20,221 nucleotides of DNA, from positions 1 through 20,221 of the forward strand of contig JAGGUN010000040.1 in NCBI GenBank assembly GCA_021158465.1. Direction: 5' to 3'. Shown one piece after another: positions 1 through 18,953 of the stretch. This DNA is from a bacterium. Lineage in GTDB: Bacteria > UBP14 > UBA6098 > 4484-93. The position numbers and the translations under genes are program-made. Within the stretch, counting starts at the first letter, position 1. Each line of letters begins with the position of its first letter. Below the pieces are notes generated by a model, which was given only the letters and a program-made list of their open reading frames with translations, was not told the DNA's origin and ran no database searches.

Positions 1-544
1 ATTCGCTGCCCTCGCAGATATCGCAGACATCGACAGATAACCTGACCCCAGCAAGGCTCTCAAGGTGTCCCGGCTCAGGAATCCAGTTAACAAAGCACGG
101 TGCCCAGATGTCCGTCGTGTCAGGCGGCTCTCCCTCAATGTCAAACTCCCAGCAAGTATCCGCAGGATTACCAGCAATGTCAGAGATACTGACACACGCC
201 CTGAGATGCGCTCCGGGTGGTAAACTACTACCAAACCAACTGACCCAGCAGTAGTATCCGTAGCCCTCATAATTCAGCTCATAAGTCTCAAGCCAGAGTG
301 TGTCCCCAATCCATATCTCCAGACGCCCAGTGGTAGTGTCAATACCTGACGCCGGACATCCAACCGGTTCTCGGGCGTTAAACCGAATCTCAACATCCCG
401 AGGAACATCCGTTGCGCCGGGATAAGGCATAAGCTCACTGATTACAGGCGGACAGGTATCCGCCGGCGGATACTGAGCAGATAGCAGTCCTCCATACAAA
501 AGGACTACCGTCAGCAGAACCGAGAACTTGATGAACTTATTCAT
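1..544 (-). CDS. Secreted Ig-like-domain protein, N-terminal part (runs off the left edge)
   Basis: I translated this by hand from the reverse complement. It is open from the ATG at 544 to base 1, giving about 181 residues and no stop. The start has a GGAGGG ribosome binding site about 4 bases upstream. The first 22 or so residues form a Sec signal peptide: MNKFIK, a hydrophobic stretch, then a likely cleavage after LLSA before QYPP. Two successive modules follow. Each opens with a Cys- and Pro-containing segment (DTCPPVISELMPYPGA near residue 30, and IWAPCFVNWIPEPG near residue 145). The first continues as VPRDVEIRFNA, the style of bacterial Ig-like (Big-type) domains on surface or secreted proteins. 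The visible part is unusually rich in Cys for an exported protein, suggesting disulfides. The role is probably cell-surface or extracellular adhesion or structure; no catalytic motif is visible. It is preceded by a sigma-54 promoter and the sigma-54 activator gene. Confidence is high that it is a real exported protein and low on exact function. Confidence 0.85.
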   Translation of the reverse strand, partial: MNKFIKFSVLLTVVLLYGGLLSAQYPPADTCPPVISELMPYPGATDVPRDVEIRFNAREPVGCPASGIDTTTGRLEIWIGDTLWLETYELNYEGYGYYCWVSWFGSSLPPGAHLRACVSISDIAGNPADTCWEFDIEGEPPDTTDIWAPCFVNWIPEPGHLESLAGVRLSVDVCDICEGSE

Positions 545-595
545 TTTACCCTCCCTTATTTGCTTTTGATCTTCACATCACCCATAAACAGATAG

Positions 596-610
596 GCAAT
601 TATTGTGCCA
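596..610 (-). promoter_or_regulatory. Sigma-54 (RpoN) promoter for the secreted Ig-like gene
   Basis: On the minus strand bases 610-596 read TGGCAC-AATAA-TTGC. This matches the RpoN consensus TGGCAC-N5-TTGC at every specified base, with the required GG-N10-GC spacing (GG at 609-608, GC at 597-596). The predicted start is near 584, leaving about a 40-base leader before the ATG at 544. It lies directly downstream of the stop of a gene encoding a sigma-54 activator with an intact GAFTGA loop. The motif is seen directly; its activity is inferred. Confidence 0.8.
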
Positions 611-651
611 GCGATCTATCGGATTGCTTTTCAAGGAGTTACGGAGATTGT

Positions 652-757
652 GGCACAGGCTGCCGCGAATTAGAGTAACAAAATAGTTACATTCAAACAT
701 TATTTTTCTCGCTTTTTGCTCATTTTTTCGTATGATAACAAACTTTACTTCAAGTAA
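652..757. promoter_or_regulatory. Candidate enhancer (activator-binding) region with three dyads
   Basis: Sigma-54 activators bind dyads roughly 70-200 bases upstream of their promoter. This interval has three: GGCA-CAGGC-TGCC at 652-664 (about -74 from the predicted start near 584), GTAAC-AAAATA-GTTAC at 675-690 (about -98), and the 13-base TTACTT-C-AAGTAA at 745-757 (about -167). The arms do not share one clear motif, so at most one or two are likely to be real sites, and the AT-rich sequence makes chance dyads easy. The surrounding gap 545-778 contains no supported gene. Confidence 0.35.
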
Positions 758-778
758 TTTATTTATTACTATTGTAGC

Positions 779-3700
779 TCATTTATTTCTTCTTAGCCCG
801 TGCTTTTTTATCAGGCTGTGCAGGCGAACACGATTTATACCAAAAAGTTCCGCTGCTCTCGTTACATTCCACCCGCATTTCTTAAGAACCGCCTCGATGC
901 TTTTCCGCTCCACCTCGTCGCAGTATCGCTTTTTTAGCGATTTCATCTCCTCGAGGCTCGTTGCAATAGGAGTTTCTTCACCACCTGCGCTTCTCGCCCA
1001 CCCGCTGGGAATATCGTCCACAGTTATAAGTTTTCCTTTGGAAAACAGGACCATCTCCCTGACGAGGTTTTCGAGTTCACGCACATTTCCGTTCCAGGGT
1101 AAGTCCCTCAGGTACTTTATCACAAGTGGTGATATGCCGATTATCTCCTTGCCGATCTCATGGGCAAACTTCTTGACGAACCTTTCGACAAGTAGCGGTA
1201 TATCTTCCGGTCGCTCACGAAGCGGTGGAATCTTTATCCTTATTCCTGACAGGCGGAAGAATAGGTCCTGTCGGAAACGACCGTCTTTGCAGAGCGCTTC
1301 CAACTCCCTGTTAGTTGCAGCTATTATTCTGACATCCACTTTCACAGGGGACCTTCCACCGAGCCGCTGAATGCTCTTATCCTCGATAGCCCGCAGAAGC
1401 TTTGCCTGAATTGCAAGCGGCATATCGCCTATCTCGTCCATAAACAGCGTTCCGGCATCTGCCAGCTCAAAAAGTCCAGGCTTACTTGTTGTGGCTCCGG
1501 TGAACGCCCCCTTCTCGTAGCCGAACAGCTCGCTCTCGAGCAGTGTTTCTGGGATTGCGGCACAGTTAACGACAACAAACGGCTTATCCTTTCTTCGGCT
1601 ATTCGCATGGATTATGCGAGCCAGAAGCTCCTTGCCGACGCCTGTCTCACCTGTTATAAGCACCGTGAAATCCGTTGGGGCAACAACGGATACACGCTCG
1701 AGGACGGATCTTATGGCATCTGATTCACCGATGAAGTCGAGTCTTTCGAGTTGTCCGAAGGCGGCTCTCAGAGCCTCGCGTTCCGATTCCAGCTCTGATA
1801 TGTAGCTCGTATTCTGAATAGCGACACCAACCTGCTGTGAAAGGGCGTCAAGGATTCGCATATCCTCATCTGTGAACCTGCCGACCTCCGCCTTCGAGTC
1901 GGTATAGATTATCCCGATAAGCTTGCTGCCGAATCTGACGGGAACGGCGAGAACCGTTCGTAGCTTAAGGTCGATGACACTTGCAGCAACGGAGAACTGC
2001 TCATCCTCGAGCGCGTTCTCGGCAAGGACCGATTCGCCTGTCCGCTTTATTTTGTCAACGATGGAACGGCTCCAGCGAACTGTCTCGAGCGGGATTGACC
2101 TACCCCCTTCTCCCCTCGCCGCAACGAGAGGAAAGCCTTCCCCCTCCCTGATAAAGAGGAGTGCTCGTTCTGTTCTGGCAACCCTTATTACTCCGTCCAA
2201 TATCCTCGAGAAGAGTGCGTCAAGCGAGCGTTCAGAGTTTATCGCGAGAATAACATCTAAGAGTTCATGGATCGCCCTATCAGAACCGGTTACAAACCTA
2301 TCAATACCTGATACACCTTCCTTCATACCGTCAAGCGGTTCTAGCATTTTCATCACCTTCTGATAGAGAACATCGTCCGTCGGATGCAGGCACCCTTCTT
2401 GATAAAGCGAGACAGCCTGCTCCCTCGATACGGGGAAGAACCTCAAAGCGGAGAGCAGAATGACCAGCCCATATTCTCTATCACTTATTATTTTAATTTT
2501 ATATAATTCCTTTATTTTTTCAACTACTGCTTGTGGGATCTTTTCCTCGATCGCAAGCGAGTATATATAGTATGCAACGAGCAGCTTGACCGCTTCCTTC
2601 TCGGGAAACAGACGAGAGAATGCCAGCATCTCGTCCGTTCCATCCAGCCTCTTGGATGTATATGCGGAGAGGAGCAATCTCTCACGGAGTTCGAGCAGTT
2701 TCAGCCTACCTCCGAGTTTTGCGGTTATCTCTGCTGCCTCGTTGAGCGCCTTGTGTGATAGAGCAAACCTACCGAGAGAGAGACAGGCTTCCGTCATCAC
2801 AAGGAGTGCCTCGGCATAGTATGGCTCCCCACCTGGCCTGTCATGCGAGATAGCAGCAGACTCCCTCGCAAATCTCACTGCATCATTGAAATTACCACGA
2901 GCGAGCCTTGCGTAGGCGAGGTTCAAGAGCAGAATCGACTCAAACTGCAGATGCGATATATCCCTTGCAATCTCGAGTGCCTTCCGAAAAAGGGATTCAG
3001 CTTTATCTATCTCTCCTCTTTCAAGATGGATATTTCCGATGTTGTTCAAGAGGATTATCTCCTGCTTGCCGCTCCCGGAGAGCATCTCCAGAGCGCGCTG
3101 GTAGTTCGACAGAGCGGATTCTATCTTGCCTGCCTCAAAATCGACGACACCTAAGTCGTTGTAAATCCCGCCTTCCACAGCCTTATCACCTTCGGAGAGT
3201 TTGAGAGCCTTCCTGTAATATTCTCTCGCCCTGTCAAAATCCCTTATACGCTTGTATCCGAGTGCAATATTCTTCAACCCCTTTATCCAGCTTATCCTAT
3301 CGGATCTTCTCTTGGCAATCGAACAGAACAGGAAGAAGCATCTTCTGGAAGCAGGTATGTCAAACGAGTTCAAAAACAGCCTACCGGACTTGAAGAGCAG
3401 TTTCTTCGCCTCATCGAGACCAGATAACCGGTAGAGCAAAGTTCCTACATCGAGAAGAAAATACGGGTTTTTCTCACTCTCAATATCTGGTAAAATCTTC
3501 TTCAAATATTTTTCTGCATAACTTATTGCCTGCGGGAAAAGGTGTCGCTGGACAGCTTTTGAGATTATCCTGTACAAACCGTCATCAGATTCAAGTATTA
3601 ACCCCTTTCGTAGCAGGATACTCAGGTGGAGTGAAGACTCCTCGGAGAGAACCTTGAACAACCTTTCGGATGGCAGTCCGTGCGGGAAGAGCGAGAGTAA

Positions 3701-5218
3701 TTCGAGCAGTCTTTTCTCTGGTTTTGGGAGAGAAGAGATCACCTCATCGAGCGATGCCCCGATAACAGAGGAGAGTATCTTCGCATCGAATACAACGCCA
3801 TCTTTTCCTCTTTTGATGCCGTTCTTCTCAGAGAGTGAGACGAGCGTTTCCCTGACCTTTTTTATATCGCCGCCGGTGGCGGAGAAGATGAGCGCTGCAA
3901 TCTCGCCTCCCGAGAGAATATCAGGGAATATGGAGAAAAGATATTCCTTCACCTCATCAGCCGATAGCTGTGGAAGCTCGAGCTTACTTGGACCCCCTGC
4001 CCTCGGTACCCGGCTCGATATGAAAAGATACGGAACACTATCCCCCAGCCCATCGAGAACCAGCTCCAACTGCCGTGATATGCCGTTATCGGACAGGAAA
4101 ACAATCTTTTCATCCACCTGCTCCGATGCGAGAAGGATGAGCCGTGCAACCCTTTCTGGGTCAAACCCACCCTGAGCAACAAGAGAAGAAAGTTCATTCC
4201 TCACAAGTCCTCTTTTCATCCTTCCAAGAAGCGGTGCGAGGATATCGCCCATCGAACTTGTCTCGAAAGCGGGAAACAAAAGTACCTTCTCCGTTTTCAG
4301 AACAAAGCTCAACTCCTTCAGGAATCTCGACTTCCCGGAACCTACAAGCTGGAGAAATGTCGGTTTGTTTAATTTTTTGAGCGTGTTGAGGACGAATGTT
4401 ACCTGCTTATCTCGTCCAACAAACTTACCACCAGGGATATGCCTAACAACGCTTATCGTCTCTTTCTTTTCTGGATAGAGTATCGCGGAGAGTATCTGTT
4501 TTGCCCGCCCGGCAGAGGATATTCTCTCTGTGGGCTTCTTCTCCAAGAGGGAACGGATGAGCCACACAAGTTCCCTGTCTGCGTCTTGCTCAGGGAAATC
4601 TGGGGTAAGTTCGAGCTGGCGGTTTATAACCTCCTGCGGCGCATCAGAGTAAAACGGATTTATCCCGTACAAAAGCTCGTACCCGATCACGCCAAGAGAA
4701 TACATATCGGATGCGGTGCTATATTCTGCTTTCCTTATCACCTCTGGAGCGATGTAGGGTAGTGTCCCGGAGACACCGTTCTTTCCACGCAAGCCGAAAT
4801 CCACAAGAACAGTCCTATCACCTTCAAGGAAGATATTCGATGGTTTGAGGTCGCAATGGAGTATCCCATAAGAATGAACGGATTCGAGGGTATCGGAAAT
4901 GCTGCATAGAATTTTAGCCACATCCTCCCAGGGGAGCGGCGGAGAGAGCTCATCGAGCGATTTACCCGTTATATATTCCATCGTGTAGAAAAAGTTCCCG
5001 CTCTCCATACCGAAATCATACACCCGAACAACACCGGGAATATCAAGCTGTGCAAGTGTATAAAATTCTCTTTTGAAGCGAGCAGCTTGCTCGAGATGCG
5101 CTAAGGTCTTAAGTGCGTATCTCTTCTTTTCGAGCTTATCCTCGACGAGGAAGACTCTGCCTGTTCCACCCGAGCCGAGTTCGGAGAGAACCCTGTATCT
5201 GCCAGCAAAATCATTCAT
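779..5218 (-). CDS. Ser/Thr kinase-ATPase-TPR-GAF-sigma-54 activator, 1479 aa
   Basis: A giant one-piece signalling protein and transcription activator. Residues 8-245 are a Hanks-type kinase: GSGGTG loop at 15-20, Lys37, Asp123 in HCDLKPSN, DFG at 140-142 and APE at 157-159. The Arg before the catalytic Asp is Cys, so it is a non-RD kinase. Residues 266-560 resemble the STAND-like ATPase of PknK/MalT-type regulators (FVGRD at 266-270), but the P-loop is shortened to LVGSGKS at 291-297 and lacks the first glycine. TPR-like helices span about 590-850 and a GAF domain about 985-1140. A complete sigma-54 AAA+ domain spans about 1161-1385, with GETGVGKE at 1190-1197, GAFTGA at 1237-1242 and Walker B DE at 1261-1262. 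A Fis-type HTH is at about 1439-1475. The start is an ATG behind GAGAGGG, overlapping the previous stop by 8 bases (ATGAATGA). It should remodel RpoN polymerase; phosphorylation targets and GAF ligand are unknown. Confidence 0.95.
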   Translation of the reverse strand: MNDFAGRYRVLSELGSGGTGRVFLVEDKLEKKRYALKTLAHLEQAARFKREFYTLAQLDIPGVVRVYDFGMESGNFFYTMEYITGKSLDELSPPLPWEDVAKILCSISDTLESVHSYGILHCDLKPSNIFLEGDRTVLVDFGLRGKNGVSGTLPYIAPEVIRKAEYSTASDMYSLGVIGYELLYGINPFYSDAPQEVINRQLELTPDFPEQDADRELVWLIRSLLEKKPTERISSAGRAKQILSAILYPEKKETISVVRHIPGGKFVGRDKQVTFVLNTLKKLNKPTFLQLVGSGKSRFLKELSFVLKTEKVLLFPAFETSSMGDILAPLLGRMKRGLVRNELSSLVAQGGFDPERVARLILLASEQVDEKIVFLSDNGISRQLELVLDGLGDSVPYLFISSRVPRAGGPSKLELPQLSADEVKEYLFSIFPDILSGGEIAALIFSATGGDIKKVRETLVSLSEKNGIKRGKDGVVFDAKILSSVIGASLDEVISSLPKPEKRLLELLSLFPHGLPSERLFKVLSEESSLHLSILLRKGLILESDDGLYRIISKAVQRHLFPQAISYAEKYLKKILPDIESEKNPYFLLDVGTLLYRLSGLDEAKKLLFKSGRLFLNSFDIPASRRCFFLFCSIAKRRSDRISWIKGLKNIALGYKRIRDFDRAREYYRKALKLSEGDKAVEGGIYNDLGVVDFEAGKIESALSNYQRALEMLSGSGKQEIILLNNIGNIHLERGEIDKAESLFRKALEIARDISHLQFESILLLNLAYARLARGNFNDAVRFARESAAISHDRPGGEPYYAEALLVMTEACLSLGRFALSHKALNEAAEITAKLGGRLKLLELRERLLLSAYTSKRLDGTDEMLAFSRLFPEKEAVKLLVAYYIYSLAIEEKIPQAVVEKIKELYKIKIISDREYGLVILLSALRFFPVSREQAVSLYQEGCLHPTDDVLYQKVMKMLEPLDGMKEGVSGIDRFVTGSDRAIHELLDVILAINSERSLDALFSRILDGVIRVARTERALLFIREGEGFPLVAARGEGGRSIPLETVRWSRSIVDKIKRTGESVLAENALEDEQFSVAASVIDLKLRTVLAVPVRFGSKLIGIIYTDSKAEVGRFTDEDMRILDALSQQVGVAIQNTSYISELESEREALRAAFGQLERLDFIGESDAIRSVLERVSVVAPTDFTVLITGETGVGKELLARIIHANSRRKDKPFVVVNCAAIPETLLESELFGYEKGAFTGATTSKPGLFELADAGTLFMDEIGDMPLAIQAKLLRAIEDKSIQRLGGRSPVKVDVRIIAATNRELEALCKDGRFRQDLFFRLSGIRIKIPPLRERPEDIPLLVERFVKKFAHEIGKEIIGISPLVIKYLRDLPWNGNVRELENLVREMVLFSKGKLITVDDIPSGWARSAGGEETPIATSLEEMKSLKKRYCDEVERKSIEAVLKKCGWNVTRAAELFGINRVRLHSLIKKHGLRRNK

Positions 5219-7409
5219 TGAATATCCCTCTCCAGCGTCCTCCCCTCAAGGTGAACCTCATCTGCCCGAGGGAATCCTCGAAGCTACCGTCCTTGTGATA
5301 CCATCGGAGGATATAGATCACATCCGAAAAGCTCGACAGTATATCGTAATCCACATTGACAATCCGGAGAACACGAACGGAATCCTCCCCGTTCATCATC
5401 CAGGTAAGCGATTTTTTCTCGAGGAGAAGCGTATCTAAAGCGGTTGTATCAAGCCTGGATATAGCAGAGAAGATGGTAGCGACTGTGTATTCAGGTGTAT
5501 ATGTATCAAATCCGAGCTTGGCGGCGAGAATGTCCTCCTTTCGAGGTTTGCCAAGCAGCTCACCGAGCTTTCTATGTTCCTCTGCCTCGTGATATTTCCC
5601 CTCCTCATTGAGGATGTCGGCAAGAGCCAGATGTGTCTGCGCGATGTAGTATCTGAAGGATACTGTCTGCTGGGAGTACTTTTCATCCGGTCGGCTCGAG
5701 AATTTCCTGAGAGCCTCCTCGTATGTCTTTTTTGCTTCCTTCTCCCTCCCTGCTTTTGCATAGAGGTAGGCAAGCTTGTTATACTGGTCTGGTCGGGAGA
5801 ACGGGGCGAGCGATATTGCACGCTCAAGAGACCTGATTGCCTGCTCGAGGCTATCCTTTTTCTCATAGATACGGGACCTGACAAGGTGGACTGCTGGCGA
5901 AAACGGAGAAAGGTTCTCAGCCACATTGAGTTGCGAGAGCGCTTCGTTGTCCTTCCCGATGGTAGAAAGGTAGTTCGCCTTCTCAATCCTATAATCAGCA
6001 TTGAGTGGGTTCAGCATAACGGCAAGTGATAGCTTACTTTTGGCAAAAAGGAGGTTCCTCTTTCGCAGATATTCCCTTGCTTCCCGGAAGCTCGTATCAG
6101 CGGTAAGAGCCAGTGTGGAAGCGATGGTAACCAACACCGAAAGGACGGCAAGAAGGGTTACCACGGGTGGTTTCAACTTCTTCTCGCTATAAGGGACGCT
6201 CCCGGCAGTTGCACCGGCAAGCCCAAAGAAAAGGTAGCTTAGGGCAGAGAAGGAAAACGAGAAATCAAACATAATGTGAAGCGAAAAGGCAAGGGTCGAC
6301 ATAAAAACGGCAAGAGTAAGATATTTCTTCTCATCGGAGATGATAAAACAGCTCCGGAATACACCCCAAAGGATGGAGATTATCATAAGGATAAACAAAA
6401 GTAGTCCAACTATTCCTCCTTCTGCGGCTGCCTGGAGGTACTGGTTATGCACATTTGTTGAGAGGTAGGAAGAAGATTTCAGATAGCTCGGATAGACGCT
6501 TTCAAAACCGCCGAGTCCGACGCCGAACAGCTTAAAATCGGAGAAGACGCGCAGAGCCATATCACCCATAAGTTTGCGCTCCTCGAATGAGCGAACCTGC
6601 TCTACACGGGATACCTCCTTTAAGCTGCTTGCCTGCTTTACAATCATCCTTGGGGCAATGAAAAGCGGAACAAGAGCAGCCGACACAACGAGGAGAACCG
6701 CAACCCTTCTGAGATCCTTCCTCCGATAACCCAAACGGAGATATACCAAAAGACCCATAATCGATGCCGCAGCAAGTGACACCCAGCCGCCTCGAGACCG
6801 CGTGAGAACAAACCCAACGAGCGATAGAACCGCTACGATAAACTCGACATATCGCCATAACTTCTTCTCTTCTGTCAGATAAAGGAAAAAGGATATCGGG
6901 ATTACAAAGAGCAGGTACCCTGCCATCGGATTCTTCCAGTAGAATGTTCCGATGAAGTATCCAGGCATATCGTGCGATGTTACGATAAGCCCCAGCATAT
7001 TCTGGATATAAAACAGATACCCGATTACAACAACAGGCAGCGAAAAAAGGACAGAAAAACGCAGGAGTTCACGCAACTTGCCCGTTTCCCTCGTGTAGTT
7101 AAAAAGCAGGATGTATATCAGGAAATAGCCAAAGTAGTTGAGGAACTGTTCCACCGTTGATGACGGGTTCACGGAAACGAATATAGAGAAGAACGAATAT
7201 CCCAATAAAATCAAAAGAGGGATGAACAGCTTAGAGAAAACGAGCTTTTCTCGGTTGACCCATAAGAGGTACGCTCCTGATACTACAACTATTGCTACGG
7301 TTTTCGGGAAGAGCCTCCAGCCACCGCCATCGAGTGCGAGGTAGAGGAAGAACGCTGGGAAAAGGATATGGAACATCTCCCTGCCGATCCTTCTGCCGCC
7401 TTTATCCAA
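5211..7409 (-). CDS. Wzy/O-antigen ligase-like membrane protein with TPR tail, 732 aa
   Basis: The first 435 or so residues are a multi-spanning membrane region of the Wzy_C (O-antigen ligase/polymerase) superfamily. It has a TRSRGGW motif at 203-209, a GVGLGGFESVYP segment at 296-307 and an NVHNQYLQAAAEGG periplasmic-loop motif at 319-332, whose His is usually catalytic in WaaL. A soluble tail follows: about four TPR-like helix pairs at 450-620, then an unassigned alpha/beta segment at 640-732 ending in GGRWRGIFNE, which resembles an NTF2-like fold. Families with this layout join or polymerise lipid-linked glycans, or glycosylate pilins. The start is TTG at 7409 with AGGGGG about 5 bases upstream, overlapping the previous gene by 8 bases; an ATG at 7376 is the alternative. 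It overlaps the kinase gene that follows. Ligase, polymerase and protein-glycan transferase cannot be told apart here. Confidence 0.85.
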   Translation of the reverse strand: MDKGGRRIGREMFHILFPAFFLYLALDGGGWRLFPKTVAIVVVSGAYLLWVNREKLVFSKLFIPLLILLGYSFFSIFVSVNPSSTVEQFLNYFGYFLIYILLFNYTRETGKLRELLRFSVLFSLPVVVIGYLFYIQNMLGLIVTSHDMPGYFIGTFYWKNPMAGYLLFVIPISFFLYLTEEKKLWRYVEFIVAVLSLVGFVLTRSRGGWVSLAAASIMGLLVYLRLGYRRKDLRRVAVLLVVSAALVPLFIAPRMIVKQASSLKEVSRVEQVRSFEERKLMGDMALRVFSDFKLFGVGLGGFESVYPSYLKSSSYLSTNVHNQYLQAAAEGGIVGLLLFILMIISILWGVFRSCFIISDEKKYLTLAVFMSTLAFSLHIMFDFSFSFSALSYLFFGLAGATAGSVPYSEKKLKPPVVTLLAVLSVLVTIASTLALTADTSFREAREYLRKRNLLFAKSKLSLAVMLNPLNADYRIEKANYLSTIGKDNEALSQLNVAENLSPFSPAVHLVRSRIYEKKDSLEQAIRSLERAISLAPFSRPDQYNKLAYLYAKAGREKEAKKTYEEALRKFSSRPDEKYSQQTVSFRYYIAQTHLALADILNEEGKYHEAEEHRKLGELLGKPRKEDILAAKLGFDTYTPEYTVATIFSAISRLDTTALDTLLLEKKSLTWMMNGEDSVRVLRIVNVDYDILSSFSDVIYILRWYHKDGSFEDSLGQMRFTLRGGRWRGIFNE

Positions 7410-10315: not shown

Positions 10316-10805
10316 ATCTTACCCCCTCGAGCTTCAGGAGGCGGAGTTTAAGAGGGATACCAGCCGTGAATCCTCCTGGTTTCCCCGACGACGCGACTAC
10401 CCTGTGGCAGGGGATAATAACAGGGAGCGGATTCTTCCCGAGAGCTTGTCCAACTGCCCTTGCAAGCCGCCTGTTACCCAGAGAGTATGCAAGCTCAGCG
10501 TATGTTATTACCTGCCCGTACGGAATATCCGCCACCTTATCCCAGACAGCTCTTTCAAACTCGGTGCCAACAAGCGGTTTTGCCCTTATATCGAAGCTCT
10601 TCCTTCTACCATCCAGATACTCAGAGATTTGCTTAAAAAATTCATCAAATACTGCAAAAGAAGCCTCTTTTACAGTGAATTTCTCTCCTATTCTCCTCTT
10701 TTGGAAGAGATTAAGAAATATAAATGATATTGTCCCATTATTACCCAGAACGGAAAACAGAATATCGGATACCTTCTCTTCTCTTATGTAAAGGATATTA
10801 TTCAT
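10305..10805 (-). CDS. ogt: Methylated-DNA--protein-cysteine S-methyltransferase, 166 aa
   Basis: A suicide DNA-repair protein that moves the alkyl group from O6-alkylguanine to its own cysteine. The C-terminal domain has the acceptor motif PCHRVV, followed by GKPGGFTAGIPLKLRLLKLEG. The helix-turn-helix with its arginine finger is in NRRLARAVGQALGKNPLP. The segment FERAVWDKVADIPYGQVITYAELA is typical of the family. The open frame extends 40 codons upstream, but those codons lie in another frame of prfB. The start chosen is the ATG at 10805 (MNNILY), which overlaps the prfB stop by 8 bases (ATGAATAA) and gives a normal family length. No good ribosome site precedes it, so translational coupling to prfB is likely. 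Confidence 0.93.
   Translation of the reverse strand: MNNILYIREEKVSDILFSVLGNNGTISFIFLNLFQKRRIGEKFTVKEASFAVFDEFFKQISEYLDGRRKSFDIRAKPLVGTEFERAVWDKVADIPYGQVITYAELAYSLGNRRLARAVGQALGKNPLPVIIPCHRVVASSGKPGGFTAGIPLKLRLLKLEGVRYAK
10322..10328 (-). promoter_or_regulatory. Ribosome binding site of glmM, inside the ogt reading frame
   Basis: The minus strand reads GAGGGGG, 6 bases before the ATG at 10315 and inside the end of ogt. It favours this ATG over the in-frame ATG five codons further on. Confidence 0.7.
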
Positions 10806-11887
10806 TTTTCCACAGCAGGTATCCCTCGATGAACATATCAAGCTCACCGTCGAGCACCGCTTGAGTATTCCCTGTTTCGAGTCCTGTTCTGTGGTCTTTG
10901 ACCATATTGTAGGGATGCATGACATATGAGCGTATCTGGCTACCCCATTCTATCTTCTTTTTTGTCTTCTCCAGTTCTGCTTTCCTTTTGCGTTCCTCCT
11001 CAAGCTGTCTTTCGTACAGGCGTGAGCGCAAGATCCTCATAGCAATCTCGCGGTTTTTATACTGAGAGCGTTCTGCCTGGCATTGAACAACAATCCCTGT
11101 TGGGATGTGTGTAATCCTGACAGCGGTTGCGACCTTATTAACATTTTGTCCGCCGTGTCCTGAGGAATGGTAGATATCGATTCTCAGGTCATCGGGATTT
11201 ATCTCGATTTCGACATCCTCGTTGACCTCCGGATAGACGAAGACAGATGCAAACGATGTATGTCGGCGTCTATTGGAATCGAACGGGGATATCCTAACGA
11301 GCCTATGTATGCCGATTTCCGCCTTCAACAGTCCATAGGCGTACTTGCCTTTGACCTCGACGGTAGCGCTCTTTATCCCTGCTTCTTCTCCTGGCAAGAT
11401 ATCTACTATGGTTGTTTCAAACCCTTTTTTCTCGCACCAGCGGAGGTACATCCGAAGCAGCATCTCTGACCAATCGCAAGCTTCTGTTCCGCCTGCTCCA
11501 GAATGGATAACAAGAATTGCATTCCCTGAGTCGTTCTCACCTGAGAGGACAAACTTCAGCTGAAGCTCATTGAGACGGGTTGAAAGGTTTTCTATATCAG
11601 CGATAAGCTCTTTTATATCCTCTGGGTCGGTCAGGACACTGGCAAGCTCCGAGATATCAGCGAGCTGCTTTTCAACGGAATCAAAATTCTCGACTATCTC
11701 CGAAAGCTGTTTCCTTCTGGAGATGACCTCCTTTCGCCTCTTCTCATCCTCACTCCAGAAGTCGGGCGAGGATATAAGCTCGTCGAGTTTGGCAAGCTCT
11801 CCCCTGGTCTCATCTATGTTAAAGATACCTCCTGAGTTCGGACAGTTTCTTCTCTATTCTCTCCAGTTCTGCTATTTGTGTGCTCAT
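10798..11887 (-). CDS. prfB: Peptide chain release factor 2, made by programmed +1 frameshift
   Basis: RF2 ends translation at UGA and UAA. The protein is encoded in two frames. Frame 0 runs 22 codons from the ATG at 11887 (ribosome site AAGGAGG at 11893-11899) to CTT-TAA. A +1 shift skipping the T at 11821 then opens a frame from AAC at 11820 to the stop at 10798, for 362 residues, a normal RF2 length. Hand translation across the join gives NIDETRGELAKLDELISSPD and then FWSEDEK, matching the RF2 N-terminal helical domain. The RF2-specific recognition tripeptide SPF is at about 200-202 (in RISPFDSNRRR), and the catalytic GGQ is at about 245-247. It lies 10 bases after tyrS, whose TAA overlaps the ribosome site, and overlaps ogt by 8 bases. 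Confidence 0.96.
11818..11833 (-). promoter_or_regulatory. Programmed +1 frameshift signal of prfB, with UAA as the in-frame stop
   Basis: On the minus strand the site reads AGGAGG (11833-11828), TAT, CTT (11824-11822), TAA (11821-11819), C. This is the classical RF2 autoregulatory layout: an internal Shine-Dalgarno three bases before the slippery CUU, followed by a stop and a C. The stop here is UAA instead of the usual UGA. RF2 reads both, but RF1 also reads UAA, so RF1 would compete with the shift. Confidence 0.92.
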
Positions 11888-13929: not shown

Positions 13930-14994
13930 TCAGAGCGAGTTTAACACGGTTTCATACTCGTTTAACACCCTGTTTTGGACAAAATTTTGAGCATGTTCGA
14001 TACAGTGTTTAGAAAGTTTACTGTATAACTCCTTGTTTTCCATCAAGTCATTTACCCTCTCAGCGATCCCATCAGGTGAGCCAACTGGGAGCAAAAAACC
14101 GTTCATACCGTCGATAACAATCTCAGGAAGACCACCGACATCCGTTGCTATAACAGGTATTCCCCTGGATAGAGCCAAAAGAGGAGCAGTTCCTAATCCC
14201 TCCATCTCCGATGGGTAGACGAACAGGTCAAATGCGTTGAGGAACTGCTCGTCCCGAGGCACAAAAATAACTCTACTCTCCACTCCAATCTTTTTGCAAT
14301 AGTCCACAAAACGAGGCTTTAGCCTTCCTTCACCAGACACAACAGCAAGGCATCGAGGCAGGCTCTTCATAGCAAGGAGAAGATCCTCGACGCGTTTCTC
14401 AGGTGAAAAGTTTGTGAGAGTGCCAACAACAAAGGCTTTGGCAGGGATTCTAAGGCGGTCTCTCGCGGTGTTCCTTTCCAGGGAAGAGACAGGCGAAACA
14501 GATCCTACCATACTGTAAATTTTCACAATCTTATCAGGAGGGACACCAGATTTCACAAGCATCCGGCGGATATAATCGGAGATGGCGATAATCCTGTCGA
14601 AGGCGAGATACTTCCTGAGACGAAACCCTGATTTCCCTATCGGGAACCCCACACGCCGGATAGCAACAAGTGAGGCTAAAATCCGCTTCCTGCCAAGAAA
14701 AACAAGGCTTTGAGCGAGGGAATCATTGGCGATTACAACCTGTTTCCCGGAGCATATACCTGCAACCCTTCTTGCCGCCAGAACATCAAACTCTGAACAG
14801 ATACTTATGGGAAATAAGTCGAAACCACACAAAGCAGTAGCAAGCTCTATATTTCTTTTGTTGTATATAACTGAGAGACGGAAACCTCGTTCTTTTAGAC
14901 CTTTTGCAAGGAGGAAAAGCTGAAACTCGCCCCCTCTTAAAGTTTTTTGCGAACTAACTAATACTATTTCTCGATTTTTCATATAGTTTTGCAT
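13930..14994 (-). CDS. Glycosyltransferase family 4, 354 aa
   Basis: A GT-B glycosyltransferase. The N-terminal strand and glycine loop are IVLVSSQKTLRGGEFQLFLLAKGL, and the donor domain starts near GTLTNFSPEKRVEDLLLAM. The GT4 motif region reads SEMEGLGTAPLLALSRGIPV, followed by GGLPEIVIDGMNGF. The second glutamate of the E-x7-E motif is replaced by leucine, which may change donor binding. The ATG at 14994 overlaps the upstream GT2 by 41 bases; an ATG four codons later (14982) is equally possible, and neither has a good ribosome site. Context within the polysaccharide cluster points to LPS or capsule assembly. The sugar is unknown. Confidence 0.88.
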   Translation of the reverse strand: MQNYMKNREIVLVSSQKTLRGGEFQLFLLAKGLKERGFRLSVIYNKRNIELATALCGFDLFPISICSEFDVLAARRVAGICSGKQVVIANDSLAQSLVFLGRKRILASLVAIRRVGFPIGKSGFRLRKYLAFDRIIAISDYIRRMLVKSGVPPDKIVKIYSMVGSVSPVSSLERNTARDRLRIPAKAFVVGTLTNFSPEKRVEDLLLAMKSLPRCLAVVSGEGRLKPRFVDYCKKIGVESRVIFVPRDEQFLNAFDLFVYPSEMEGLGTAPLLALSRGIPVIATDVGGLPEIVIDGMNGFLLPVGSPDGIAERVNDLMENKELYSKLSKHCIEHAQNFVQNRVLNEYETVLNSL

Positions 14995-15706
14995 ATTTCA
15001 GAAAAGTGTAATATCCCGACATAACCGAAAGAACAAGACCAGGAAATCCGTCTAACATACCAAATTTCAGGAGGTAAGTTGATATTATTTTCCAAATTGG
15101 TCTAAGTGATACATCTAACATACTGCTTTTGCGACCTAATATCAGCATCTCATTCGACCAAAGGTCGGTATAAAGGTTCATCTTTTCAAGGTGATGCGAG
15201 ATATTCCTATACGGATGATGAAGCAGTTTCCCACTCAGTCTACCAACCTTCCCAGTAAGGTTCACACCCTCATGAACCGCTTTACCGTCAAAACTTGCTT
15301 CTTCTCTTCTGAAGAGGCGCAGCACCCAGTCAGGATACCATCCAGAATGTTTCATCCACCTGCCAAGGTAACAAGACTGCCGCAAAATATAGTAACCAGA
15401 ATAGTCTGACCTTGTTCTCAAAACATCCTTGATGCTCCTTTCAAGCTCGGGTGTTAGCCATTCATCCGCATCTATCCAAAGCGCCCAGTCGGATGTCGCC
15501 TTTTCAAGCAGGAACTGCTTTGTGCCAGAGAAGTGGAACTTTTCCACATCAAATATCTTATTGGTGAAACGACTTGCTATCTCGACCGTTCTGTCGGTAC
15601 TGCCGGAATCGGCAACCAGTATCTCATCGGCGAAGGAAACCGTTCTAAGACAGCGTGCAATATTCTGCTCCTCGTTCTTTACCACAAGTATCACAGAAAG
15701 GGTCAT
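14954..15706 (-). CDS. Glycosyltransferase family 2, WaaE/KdtX-like, 250 aa
   Basis: A GT-A glycosyltransferase. It opens with MTLSVILVVKNEEQNIARCL and has the nucleotide-binding segment EILVADSGSTDRT and the metal-binding motif in WALWIDADEWL. The region YLGRWMKHSGWYPDWVLRLFRR, then VHEGVNLTGKVGRL and HHPYRNISHHLEKMNLY, is typical of the WaaE/KdtX group, which adds glucose to LPS inner core. The activity here is an inference from that likeness. The ATG has a strong GGAGGGGAGAG ribosome site, overlaps the upstream WaaL-like gene by 4 bases (ATGA) and runs 41 bases into the next GT4. The C-terminal 50 or so residues contain a hydrophobic stretch suited to membrane association. Confidence 0.88.
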   Translation of the reverse strand: MTLSVILVVKNEEQNIARCLRTVSFADEILVADSGSTDRTVEIASRFTNKIFDVEKFHFSGTKQFLLEKATSDWALWIDADEWLTPELERSIKDVLRTRSDYSGYYILRQSCYLGRWMKHSGWYPDWVLRLFRREEASFDGKAVHEGVNLTGKVGRLSGKLLHHPYRNISHHLEKMNLYTDLWSNEMLILGRKSSMLDVSLRPIWKIISTYLLKFGMLDGFPGLVLSVMSGYYTFLKYAKLYEKSRNSIS

Positions 15707-16872
15707 CTCTCCCCTCCCGAAAGTGCAAAACCGAGCAGGAAGACAACGAATTCTCCCACCTCAGCATCGGTCCAATTGCACTGGAAAAACGATGCAACAA
15801 GAAAACCAACCACAGCAGAAAGGGAACCAAGCGCTATACCTTCATCCAAGCCTTCGCTCGACTTCATCCGCCTTAGTATCAAAACAAAAAACAGAATAAA
15901 TATTGAAATAAAGGGAACAAATGTAAATATTCCCCCAGATGCGAGTATGTTGAGATAGTCGTTATGTGGATGGCAGGTGTTGTCATACACTCCGCCTGCG
16001 TAAAACTCGTCGAAATATGTCGAGAAGTTGCCCGCCCCGATACCAAAGAAAGGATGTGCCTTGAACATATTGAACGCTGTCCTCAAAAGTGTTATCCGAG
16101 ACTCAACCGCTACCTCGCCGAAGTGCAAATCCATAACCCTCTCGCGGAGAGATGGAAAAAGAAATATCAAAACCGCCACCAGAAAAAGTATAAAGAAGAG
16201 GAACGCAACCTTTCTCTTTTTACAAAAGGCGAGAGAAACAATCCCTGCAACAAAACCAAGCCAGGCGCTTCTGGCAAAGGAGACCACAACCGATACCGTC
16301 GCAAGAATCCCCGAAGGGAAAGAGAACCTCCCCTCAGAAGCAAAAATACCGAAAGCAAACAGGGCAAGCATCATATACATAGTGCCAAAAGTCAGATGCT
16401 GTCCAAATACACCTGTCGCAATGAAGAAACTGCCAGCAGGCTCGAGCATCCTCGCACGATACAGGTCAACGCCCGAAAAGAACTGCCAAGCAGCATACAC
16501 AGAAACAATGGACAAGATAACAAAAAGAAGATAAAGAGCAAACCTCCTTCTCTTCTCGGTCCATCTGGTGGCAATACCCGATAGGATAGCCAGAACCATC
16601 CACTCGTTGGCGAACGAACGGATAGAATCACACCTATTGGAGGCAAGAAGAGACGAGATGAAATAAGATGTAAGATAGGCAAACACACATAAAGAGAGCG
16701 GGTGAAGGAGCAGTTTTCTCTTGTATAAAAAAATATTCAGTATCCCGACGATAACAGTCCCTGCAAGGAAAGCCTGGGCTCCAGCCAGAGACCAAGGGGC
16801 AAAAAACAAGAAACCTATCCAAAGGAAAACAAGAAGGTTATTTAGAGCTTTTTCGCTCAAGTATCTTTTCAT
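15703..16872 (-). CDS. O-antigen ligase/polymerase family membrane protein (WaaL/Wzy-like), 389 aa
   Basis: A multi-spanning inner-membrane protein with about ten hydrophobic segments. The Wzy_C core contains SFARSAWLGF (about 198-207), GIGAGNFSTYFDEFY (about 277-291) and CHPHNDYLNILASGG (about 300-314). The His of the last motif is the likely catalytic residue in the periplasmic loop. Length and layout fit WaaL, which joins lipid-linked O-antigen to lipid A-core; a Wzy polymerase role is not excluded. The open frame can begin at TTG 16896, but the ATG at 16872 (MKRYLSEKAL) is preferred. It still overlaps the upstream GT4 by 35 bases and lacks a clear ribosome site, implying coupling. Unlike the Wzy-like protein at 5211-7409, it has no TPR tail. 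Confidence 0.87.
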   Translation of the reverse strand: MKRYLSEKALNNLLVFLWIGFLFFAPWSLAGAQAFLAGTVIVGILNIFLYKRKLLLHPLSLCVFAYLTSYFISSLLASNRCDSIRSFANEWMVLAILSGIATRWTEKRRRFALYLLFVILSIVSVYAAWQFFSGVDLYRARMLEPAGSFFIATGVFGQHLTFGTMYMMLALFAFGIFASEGRFSFPSGILATVSVVVSFARSAWLGFVAGIVSLAFCKKRKVAFLFFILFLVAVLIFLFPSLRERVMDLHFGEVAVESRITLLRTAFNMFKAHPFFGIGAGNFSTYFDEFYAGGVYDNTCHPHNDYLNILASGGIFTFVPFISIFILFFVLILRRMKSSEGLDEGIALGSLSAVVGFLVASFFQCNWTDAEVGEFVVFLLGFALSGGER

Positions 16873-17956
16873 AGAAATCGACCGTATCTCTTGCAAACTT
16901 CTCTATGGAATACTTTCTCTCTGCTACCTTTCTGGCAGACCTACCCATCTGTTGAATCCTGCCTGAGCTGATTATACTGGAAACCGCGCAAGCAAACGCT
17001 GTCGGGGTAATATCATCAACTACAATTCCGAAATCATCCGTCACAATATCTGGCAAGACACCAACATTCGATGTAACAACCGGAACACCGGAAGCGATAT
17101 ACTCCAGAAGCGTTCTGGCAATGTATTCTGAGCCGGTCGATGGGATAAGCCCGACATCCGTCACAGAAAGGAGATCAAACACACTACGGCTACCGACGAT
17201 GACATCGGTTCTATCCTCTATTCCAGCGTCCTTTACCATAGCCGTTATCTCATCCTCGCTTATCTGTGCCGGGTAGCCAACTATGAGAAAATGCACATTT
17301 GAAAACCGACGAGACAGGAGCCTTGCCGTCTGTATGAAGATGTCATGCCCTTTCACAGGAGAAAACCTGGCAATGATTGTGACAACAATCTCATCATCGG
17401 CGATGCCAAGCCTCGCACGAAGATTGCCACCCTTTCTCGGAGTGAAAAGAGCTGTGTCGATGCCAAGGGGAATGTATTCAAGCTTATCGGCAGGAACAGC
17501 TGCTATGCTGATATCATCGAGGAGTGAACGTGAGACACATATCACGCCATCGGTCAAGCGCTGCAACTGATGACGGCTGAATATGCTTTTCCGAGAGCGT
17601 CTCCTATCGCCTATCGTGCGGATGAGAGAAAAACGCCCGATAAGCTTGCGAAGCAGAGAGAAAAGCGTATGTTCCTCTCCCCTGTGAACATTGACAATAT
17701 CGTATCTCTCTTCCGCGAGCAGTTCTCGGAGAAAACCGGATGTGCCTACATATCCGAACAGACCTTTGCCAGTGAATCGAAACGGGATGAGCCTAACGCC
17801 GTGGCATTCGGAGCGTGCCATCGAGAAAAGCGGCGAGTCGGGATGAGAAAGCAGATGAACCTCAACCCCAAGCCTCGCAAGCGCACAGGATAGAACATAA
17901 CCATAGTGAGCCTGCGCATTATACCAGCGAAAGTTCACCACCTGAAGAACTTTCAC
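16838..17956 (-). CDS. Glycosyltransferase family 4, 372 aa
   Basis: A GT-B glycosyltransferase. The N-terminal domain begins VKVLQVVNFRWYNAQAHYGYVL, and the donor domain begins near VVTIIARFSPVKGHDIFIQ. The E-x7-E motif is intact in GSEYIARTLLEYIASGVPVV, followed by SNVGVLPDIV. The open frame extends to a TTG at 18025, but those 23 codons are AT-rich and overlap promoter sequence. The GTG at 17956 has GGAGGG (17964-17969) 7 bases upstream and begins at the first beta strand, so it is the start used here. It is the first gene of the long minus-strand run and faces the plus-strand GT2 gene across a 76-base divergent gap. Substrate unknown. Confidence 0.88.
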   Translation of the reverse strand: MKVLQVVNFRWYNAQAHYGYVLSCALARLGVEVHLLSHPDSPLFSMARSECHGVRLIPFRFTGKGLFGYVGTSGFLRELLAEERYDIVNVHRGEEHTLFSLLRKLIGRFSLIRTIGDRRRSRKSIFSRHQLQRLTDGVICVSRSLLDDISIAAVPADKLEYIPLGIDTALFTPRKGGNLRARLGIADDEIVVTIIARFSPVKGHDIFIQTARLLSRRFSNVHFLIVGYPAQISEDEITAMVKDAGIEDRTDVIVGSRSVFDLLSVTDVGLIPSTGSEYIARTLLEYIASGVPVVTSNVGVLPDIVTDDFGIVVDDITPTAFACAVSSIISSGRIQQMGRSARKVAERKYSIEKFARDTVDFYEKILERKSSK

Positions 17957-17984
17957 TTGACAACCCTCCAGCAGAAGATATATT
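17957..17984 (+). promoter_or_regulatory. Sigma-70 promoter for the plus-strand GT2-ABC genes
   Basis: A perfect TTGACA (17957-17962), a 16-base spacer and TATATT (17979-17984, five of six consensus bases). The predicted start is near 17991, giving a leader of roughly 40 bases before the ATG at 18033. Confidence 0.65.
17964..17969 (-). promoter_or_regulatory. Ribosome binding site that sets the GTG start at 17956
   Basis: The minus strand reads GGAGGG, 7 bases before the GTG. It also lies inside the spacer of the plus-strand promoter, so the same bases serve both directions. Confidence 0.7.
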
Positions 17985-18006
17985 AGTCGGCAAGCAAATT
18001 TAACAA
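17977..18006 (-). promoter_or_regulatory. Candidate sigma-70 promoter for the minus-strand polysaccharide run
   Basis: On the minus strand TTGTTA (18006-18001), an 18-base spacer, then TATATC (17982-17977). The match is weaker, and an alternative -10 (TAATAT at 17985-17980) has a 15-base spacer. The predicted start lies only a few bases before the GGAGGG ribosome site. The -10 overlaps that of the plus-strand promoter. Confidence 0.35.
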
Positions 18007-18032
18007 AAATATAAAGAAAAACCAAGAAAATT

Positions 18033-18953
18033 ATGAAGTTATCGGGGTTTTCGTTTGCAAGAAACGCAGTTAGCCTCGATTATCCGATTGTCGAATCGAT
18101 AAAATCCATCTTGCCGATCGTTGATGAATTTGTTATCGCATTAGGGGATTCAACCGATAACACGACGGAGGTTGTACGCTCAATCGGTGATAAGAAGATC
18201 AAGATAATCGAGACAGTGTGGGACAAGAAGCTTTTCGTCCACGGTGCAATAAACGCCCAGCAAACCGATATCGCACTCTCCCAATGCACCGGAGATTGGT
18301 GTATCTATCTTCAGGCAGATGAGGTTATACACGAGAAATACCTGCCGGTAATCCTCGAGGCGTGCAAAAGATACCTCCACAACAGAGAGGTCGAGGGGTT
18401 CCTGCTATCATACAAGCATTTCTGGGGGGATTATTTCAAGTATCAGAAGGCTCACAACTGGTATAGGAGGGAGATCCGAGTGGTGAGGAACGGAATCGGT
18501 GTGCACTCTTGGAAATCTGCCCAGAGCTTTCGCGTCCACGGGAGAAAGATGAGGACTATACTCATACCCGCCGAGGTATATCACTACGGCTGGGTGAGGG
18601 AACCGGTCGTTATGAAGAAGAAATCTGTCGCCCTCGATTCGCTCCACCACGATAAGGAATATATCGAGAAGAAATACCCCGGAAAGGAGAAAACAACACC
18701 GTTCGAATATGGTTCACTTAAGTATCTTGCCGACTTCAAAGGAACTCATCCTGCCGTTATGAAAGATAGGATCGCAGCAAAGAACTGGACGATCACCGAG
18801 AACCCAAAAGTAAAGCATAAGCATATGAAACTCTCCACCAGACTGCTCTCGGCTATCGAAAACCTGCTCGGGACGAGGCTCGGCGAGTACAGAAACTACC
18901 GTCTCATCGGGAAGGACTACTCGCTTAGAAGATTTATCGGGGAAGAGATATGA
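18033..18953 (+). CDS. Glycosyltransferase family 2-like protein, 306 aa
   Basis: A GT-A-like protein. It opens MKLSGFSFARNAVSLDYPIVESIKS, has the nucleotide-binding segment EFVIALGDSTDNT (about 32-44) and a DXD-like motif in WCIYLQADEVIHEKY (Asp96-Glu97). The rest holds family-like segments: FLLSYKHFWGDYFKY, an HSWKSAQSFRVHGRKM region and VYHYGWVREP, where a His may be catalytic. No membrane segment is obvious. It is transcribed away from the other sugar genes and overlaps the ABC ATPase by 4 bases (ATGA). The ribosome site is weak (AAGAAAA region). Acceptor and sugar are unknown. A role in surface glycan assembly is inferred from context. Confidence 0.82.
   Translation: MKLSGFSFARNAVSLDYPIVESIKSILPIVDEFVIALGDSTDNTTEVVRSIGDKKIKIIETVWDKKLFVHGAINAQQTDIALSQCTGDWCIYLQADEVIHEKYLPVILEACKRYLHNREVEGFLLSYKHFWGDYFKYQKAHNWYRREIRVVRNGIGVHSWKSAQSFRVHGRKMRTILIPAEVYHYGWVREPVVMKKKSVALDSLHHDKEYIEKKYPGKEKTTPFEYGSLKYLADFKGTHPAVMKDRIAAKNWTITENPKVKHKHMKLSTRLLSAIENLLGTRLGEYRNYRLIGKDYSLRRFIGEEI

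Follow-up and report, generated by a model that had tools for sequence, protein, structure and literature searches.

The locus considered here raises the question of what is switched on by a sigma-54 activator that carries a Ser/Thr kinase in the same polypeptide, and in particular whether its target is the gene for a secreted protein lying directly behind it. The stretch of DNA analyzed (20,221 nucleotides; hereinafter the window) is a complete contig (C39) of a 2.04 Mb genome (G000; 54 contigs, 97.6% complete) from an uncultured phylum. The class comparison comprised few genomes (17), in incomplete assemblies, with G001 denoting the sister species (public record NATO01000096.1, 'Zixibacteria bacterium 4484_93'); genome-wide motif counts are from exact-pattern searches. 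The features of the activator are the following:

779..5218, minus strand: activator of 1479 aa, STPK - AAA_16/STAND-like - TPR - GAF - sigma-54 AAA+ - Fis-type HTH (ORF, Pfam, alignment)
4490..5197, minus strand: Ser/Thr kinase domain, aa 8-243 (Pfam Pkinase, 5.6e-42; alignment)
4133..4426, minus strand: AAA_16/STAND-like module, aa 265-362, with a shortened P-loop LVGSGKS (Pfam, alignment)
2720..3241, minus strand: TPR region, aa about 660-833 (Pfam)
1814..2233, minus strand: GAF domain, aa 996-1135 (Pfam GAF_2, 1.4e-15)
1235..1732, minus strand: sigma-54 AAA+ domain, aa 1163-1328 (Pfam Sigma54_activat, 5.4e-71; alignment)
818..916, minus strand: Fis-type HTH, aa 1435-1467 (Pfam HTH_8, 6.9e-9, above cut-off; alignment)

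The preliminary description of this DNA had read a 1479-residue activator with an intact GAFTGA loop and a Fis-type HTH, and the ORF, the Pfam matches and the alignment agree on all three. Walker A, Walker B and the arginine-finger region are likewise intact, as they are together with GAFTGA in all class members aligned, and Pfam also matches the lid region between Sigma54_activat and HTH_8. That proposal had been made to hinge on an rpoN gene, and RpoN is indeed encoded in the genome (E 1.2e-54), as in 15 of the 17 class genomes. Judged by these features (Sigma54_activat, GAFTGA, HTH, and RpoN in the genome), the protein is a bacterial enhancer-binding protein (bEBP). The kinase domain has the catalytic Lys, Asp, Asn, DFG and APE and is of the non-RD type (HCD); by its Lys, Asp, Asn and DFG it is a Hanks-type Ser/Thr kinase with predicted activity. 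While the kinase, TPR and GAF modules of the original domain list are recovered by Pfam, the STAND-like one fared less well: its AAA_16 match is weak (E 2e-5, under the curated cut-off) and its P-loop is shortened where a STAND NTPase would have an intact one, so we call the module STAND-like only.

The protein occurs in 10 of the 17 class genomes, one of which has two copies, and its homologues in the other class genomes are about 1570-1650 aa long. Pfam recovers the full architecture in G002, G004, G005 (both copies), G008 and G010, with HTH_8 not among the matches listed for the G004 homologue; that of G015 matches along its length by BLAST, and those of G007 and G014 run into contig ends. 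In G001 a single frameshift near codon 480-522 (L143 5783-5841, contig G001:C36), either an assembly error or real, divides the ORF. Similar proteins of 1745-1841 aa in G049 and three relatives of another phylum (G061-G063) indicate that the fusion extends beyond this class: G049 shows the kinase - AAA_16 - TPR - GAF - sigma-54 architecture, and the others are similar in length and matching region. They share the kinase-to-sigma-54 layout but differ in loop variants, with GAYTSA in G049 and GAYTGA in one G063 copy, alongside GAFTGA in L245-L247. Candidate fused homologues in Myxococcales (L093) and Desulfobacteraceae (L059) were rejected, the kinase and sigma-54 matches lying in far-apart, different frames or the sigma-54 match standing alone.

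Downstream of the activator lie the following elements:

2..544, minus strand: secreted, probably Ig-like surface protein, first 181 aa (ORF; gene runs off the contig)
549..557, minus strand: Shine-Dalgarno-like AAGGGAGGG of the secreted gene (sequence inspection; good match)
596..610, minus strand: predicted sigma-54 promoter, -24/-12, TGGCACAATAATTGC (motif search; conserved in the sister species)

The 234-base gap between the two genes (545-778) and the TGGCAC-N5-TTGC element within it are placed correctly in the preliminary description: TGGCACAATAATTGC runs from 610 to 596 on the coding strand of the ORF at 2-544, with the canonical GG-N10-GC spacing. It is the sole exact match within the window; with up to two mismatches there are 14 matches, equal to chance. 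Across the genome exact matches number 11, versus 4 for a reversed control, and five of them are intergenic and sensibly spaced, preceding genes for a type IV pilin, a pilin-like protein, Hsp20, a FlgD/sorting-tail-like ORF and the secreted protein of the window. The others (C4:18372, C11, C16, C27, C36:55536 and C41) were set aside as chance, since they fall within coding regions or at their beginnings, or lack a fitting gene. The site before the FlgD/sorting-tail-like ORF (G000:C23:19749; L018) stands ahead of a lone reading frame of 120 aa. Exact sites preceding pilin and Hsp20 genes argue that the motif is used in this genome; the sole exact match in the window, the genome-wide excess and the encoded RpoN thus make the promoter credible by itself. 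Its counterpart in the sister species reads TGGCACAATAGTTGC, and with the GG-N10-GC spacing, TGGCAC/TTGC and conservation in a relative the element is a predicted sigma-54 promoter.

The activator, promoter and secreted gene are all kept in the sister species (85% identity for the secreted gene), and a homologous secreted protein follows the activator in G002, G004 and G007, which are three genera of two other families. The gaps of these three contain a GG-N10-GC/GA element (TTGGCACAATAGTTGAT, ATGGCAAGAAAAATGCG and ACGGCATATTTTATGCT, respectively), with the caveat that the G004 and G007 promoters are degenerate and that G002 has TTGA at -12. The G005 contig (C35) ends 200 bases past the activator, at TTTGGCAC (TTGGCAC), and a search for its continuation beyond that point found none. 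The expectation that relatives would share the gene pair and promoter is hence borne out in G001, and as a gene pair in G002, G004 and G007; it fails in family f3 (G008, G010, G014 and G015), where the activator is kept beside an unrelated downstream gene with neither secreted gene nor promoter, the outcome listed at the outset as counter-evidence. On its other side, the activator has a conserved neighbor:

5211..7409, minus strand: Wzy_C / O-antigen-ligase-like membrane protein with C-terminal TPR, 8-base overlap with the activator start (Pfam; neighbor conserved)

A homologue of this Wzy_C/TPR protein is the upstream neighbor of the activator in G001, G002, G004, G005, G008 and G010 (26-86% identity). 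Further upstream of the activator region, the window contains a glycosyltransferase cluster with a second Wzy_C ligase (13930-18953) and, at about 10798-11887 (minus strand), prfB with a canonical programmed +1 frameshift site AGGAGG-TAT-CTT-stop-C; here, however, the stop (11819-11821, minus strand) is not the usual TGA but TAA, which RF1 recognizes as well, so that autoregulation by RF2 would be weaker.

Within the gap we detected two palindromic sites:

754..769, minus strand: predicted enhancer site A, dyad GTAAT-N6-ATTAC (counterparts 1-15 bases past the activator stop in five other genomes)
675..690, minus strand: predicted enhancer site B, dyad GTAAC-N6-GTTAC, 79 bp from A (dyad search)

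Two 16-bp dyads (5-N6-5) are present in all six gaps (G000, G001, G002, G004, G005 and G007), which represent three families. The A/B offsets past the activator stop are 9/88 in G000 and G001, 15/94 in G002, 12/91 in G005, 1/77 in G004 and 10/85 in G007, for an A-B spacing of 79 bp in the first four of these genomes, 76 bp in G004 and 75 bp in G007; from the end of site B to the promoter GG there are 65 bases in G000 and G001 and 74-89 in the other genomes. The half-sites are GTAAY...RTTAC in the genus of the window (GTAAC-N6-GTTAC) versus GTTAT...ATAAC in the others (GTTAT-N6-ATAAC), and the sister species has an imperfect site A (GAAAC...ATTAC). The genome of the window has five GTAAY-N6-RTTAC sites, two of them within the 234-base gap. 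In dinucleotide shuffles the pair was matched in 0 of 2000 for G002, G004, G005, G007 and the G004 CotH promoter (see below), and for the window gap in 0 of 2000 with its own consensus and 5 of 2000 with any perfect dyad pair at that spacing; the consensus was derived from the same sequences, which is partly offset by the other genera, the CotH promoters and the activator-less genomes. In contrast to this specific paired arrangement, inverted repeats counted in general are not significant in G000, G001 or G002.

When 304 kb of class loci were scanned, the pair was recovered, outside the genus of the window, only at four gaps and two CotH promoters, and each pair, bar that on a truncated contig, is followed 74-89 bp on by a GG-N10-GC/GA element. 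Single exact dyads elsewhere were rejected (mostly within genes, none with a promoter), as was a dyad pair 58 bp apart ahead of a PilZ-like gene on G004:C7, which has no suitable GG-N10-GC element. The end of G005:C94 (L239 about 1106-1137) finishes in GTTATATATATATAACACTGTTATAATTATAT, nearly matching the site A arrangement of G005:C35, and may belong to a further regulated promoter that is lost at the contig break. The second kinase-activator of G005 (C163; L141 10080-10600) has a near-dyad GTTACTAATTAATAAC in a divergent gap with no clear promoter, beyond which lies a 1525-aa ORF of a different kind. In the window, a conserved block CCGTAACTCCTTGAAAAGCAATCCGATAGAT (614-644, minus strand) between site B and the promoter lies inside a 36-bp stretch identical to the sister species at 31 of 36 positions, the flanking spacer being about 60% identical; this block may be a further protein site.

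As to the product of the predicted promoter, the signal peptide of the preliminary description is seen, by eye, as an N-terminal signal-peptide-like stretch in the ORF at 2-544, whereas the Ig-like assignment is more distant: because the gene is cut by the contig end, only 181 aa are visible, Pfam finds no match on these, and the protein is probably Ig-like by virtue of distant, sub-cut-off Big_5 matches of its homologues. The complete G004 counterpart (1005 aa) has near-identical internal repeats, CarboxypepD_reg domains and a Por_Secre_tail, the T9SS sorting domain; the corresponding C-terminus of the window gene lies off the contig. The genome of the window encodes the T9SS translocon SprA, for which 16 of the 17 class genomes have a match (above the cut-off in 15). 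Contigs break inside or just before the secreted gene in G000, G001, G002, G005 and G007, which repeats like those of G004 would explain. Ahead of a secreted CotH-kinase gene, G004 has a second dyad pair, 77 bp apart, which is followed after 85 bases by ATGGCATATGGAATGCT; likewise, G007 has a pair 84 bp apart ahead of a CotH gene, with ATGGCATAAATAATGCA 85 bases on. These two CotH cases come from one genus, and both genomes have the activator; the CotH genes of G003, G011, G012 and G013, in which no such activator was found, show no dyad pair.

The domains, promoter, dyads and conservation seen in these sequences make it most likely that the activator recognizes the dyads and turns on the expression of surface/T9SS-type proteins via sigma-54. 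We regard as highly probable the fuller reading in which it binds the dyad pair, switches on the secreted gene via RpoN and governs a small surface/T9SS-type regulon under the control of its sensory modules. Drawing for binding and activation on established bEBP biology, we envisage a cytoplasmic bEBP whose HTH dimers would occupy A (754-769) and B (675-690), just past the activator's own stop codon, and assemble the AAA+ ring; through GAFTGA, this ring would remodel RpoN-RNA polymerase poised on the -24/-12 element (610-596), and transcription of the secreted surface-protein gene (start 544) would begin at about position 584. The same dyad pair and promoter would control the secreted CotH gene in relatives, making up a small cell-surface/T9SS-type regulon. 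We further infer that an internal cue acts on the AAA+ domain through gating by the kinase, TPR and GAF modules; our guess is that this cue may be the envelope glycan state, suggested, and no more, by the Wzy-type ligase gene being the conserved upstream neighbor.

The strongest argument for the dyads being the activator's sites is that they travel with the activator and with sigma-54-type secreted-protein promoters, also away from the activator gene. Counting against the fuller reading are the f3 activators without a target, the degenerate promoters, the dyad consensus differing between families, the imperfect site A of the sister species, the restriction to two CotH cases and the eight other sigma-54 activators of the genome, which could in principle serve the promoter. 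The earlier proposal of a pathway from the activator to the secreted gene via RpoN is thus well supported by the conserved gene pair, the -24/-12 element and the dyad pair in six genomes of three families; it is not, however, a private one-to-one pathway, since a secreted CotH gene in other genomes has this cis-module ahead of it as well and f3 has the activator without the target.

With regard to gating, a tentative possibility is that the fused kinase phosphorylates its own regulatory/AAA+ region or a hexamer neighbor and so gates sigma-54 activation of the surface/T9SS regulon, perhaps glycan-tuned via the Wzy-type neighbor; if true, a eukaryote-style kinase would directly control an enhancer and a surface/T9SS regulon. 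We are rather doubtful of the converse, in which only the AAA+ domain is active, the kinase, AAA_16 and TPR are passive remnants, and a GAF ligand alone activates, as in NifA/FhlA-type proteins, a scenario compatible with the enhancer part of our explanation. The AAA_16 P-loop is indeed eroded in several members (shortened in the genus of the window; Lys absent in G007, G008, G010 and G015), and the GAF-AAA+-HTH part resembles NifA (chain 9qq6_C matches aa 1044-1463). However, in every class member with the kinase region Lys, Asp, Asn, DFG and APE/SPE are kept, with the Arg of HRD replaced (HCD, HLD), and relative to the sister species all activator modules are under purifying selection (dN/dS 0.03-0.23), including the kinase (0.14), GAF (0.06), sigma-54 domain (0.06) and HTH (0.03).

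The preferred reading, in which the activator controls the secreted gene through the dyads, must also be weighed against the unlikely case of a real -24/-12 promoter driven by another sigma-54 activator, with the targets of the kinase-activator elsewhere, the adjacency historical and the dyads another protein's. bEBPs often act at a distance, the genome encodes nine genuine Sigma54_activat proteins (including the kinase-activator), and f3 dispenses with the adjacent target; against this, six genomes from three families have the dyad pair in the gap directly behind the activator, the pair recurs at CotH only where the genome also encodes the activator, and the other -24/-12 promoters of the genome of the window (pilin, Hsp20) lack these dyads. 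That the dyads mainly serve something besides the secreted gene, such as DNA structure or the 3' end of the activator mRNA, the promoter using another enhancer, would fit site A beginning just 1-15 bases past the activator stop codon, but is very improbable: the dyads are rich in A+T and have neither the G+C stem nor the U run of an intrinsic terminator, and ahead of CotH, where there is no activator gene nearby, the same pair stands equally far from a GG-N10-GC element.

Like the GAF-type bEBPs (NifA/FhlA/NorR), the predicted activator combines GAF, a sigma-54 AAA+ domain with GAFTGA and a Fis-type HTH, with predicted enhancer dyads upstream of a -24/-12 element; unlike these, it has kinase, AAA_16 and TPR parts totaling about 980 residues ahead of the GAF, and its predicted targets are secreted surface proteins. 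The M. tuberculosis kinase with a MalT-like part, which we take to be PknK, has to our knowledge no GAF and no sigma-54 domain. An N-terminal Ser/Thr kinase is fused to the MalT-like C-terminus of that protein (PMC1262709) and is equally N-terminal here, in a chain that has a GAF and a sigma-54 domain. The closest chassis is that of the cyanobacterial dual kinases cbSTKIII and HstK/Alr2258, with an N-terminal Ser/Thr kinase, a later GAF and a histidine kinase output (PMC2176072); kinase and GAF share one chain in both, whereas the output here is the sigma-54 AAA+ domain and HTH, with no HisKA of an HstK-type C-terminus among the Pfam matches listed. Sigma-54 has been viewed as a controller of the bacterial exterior (Francke et al., 2011; PMC3162934), to which the present surface gene, as a predicted sigma-54 target beside a polysaccharide gene, bears a likeness, and its known activators are mostly response regulators of two-component systems or PAS/GAF sensors (PMC3162934). 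Searches of that study and of a 2025 sigma-54 survey (PMC12316311) turned up no mention of a kinase-fused sigma-54 activator, and our open-access literature search found none described. What appears to be new is the module of paired 16-bp dyads and a -24/-12 element in six gaps, together with an activator that differs from described classes by its kinase chassis.

Comparison alone has thus yielded a probable enhancer, a promoter and regulon members for a protein with a predicted Ser/Thr kinase in the same chain as a sigma-54 motor. One protein and short DNA fragments thereby suffice for a direct test of a signaling circuit of an uncultured phylum, and the locus would provide a concrete link between Ser/Thr kinase signaling, sigma-54 and the export of T9SS-type surface proteins.
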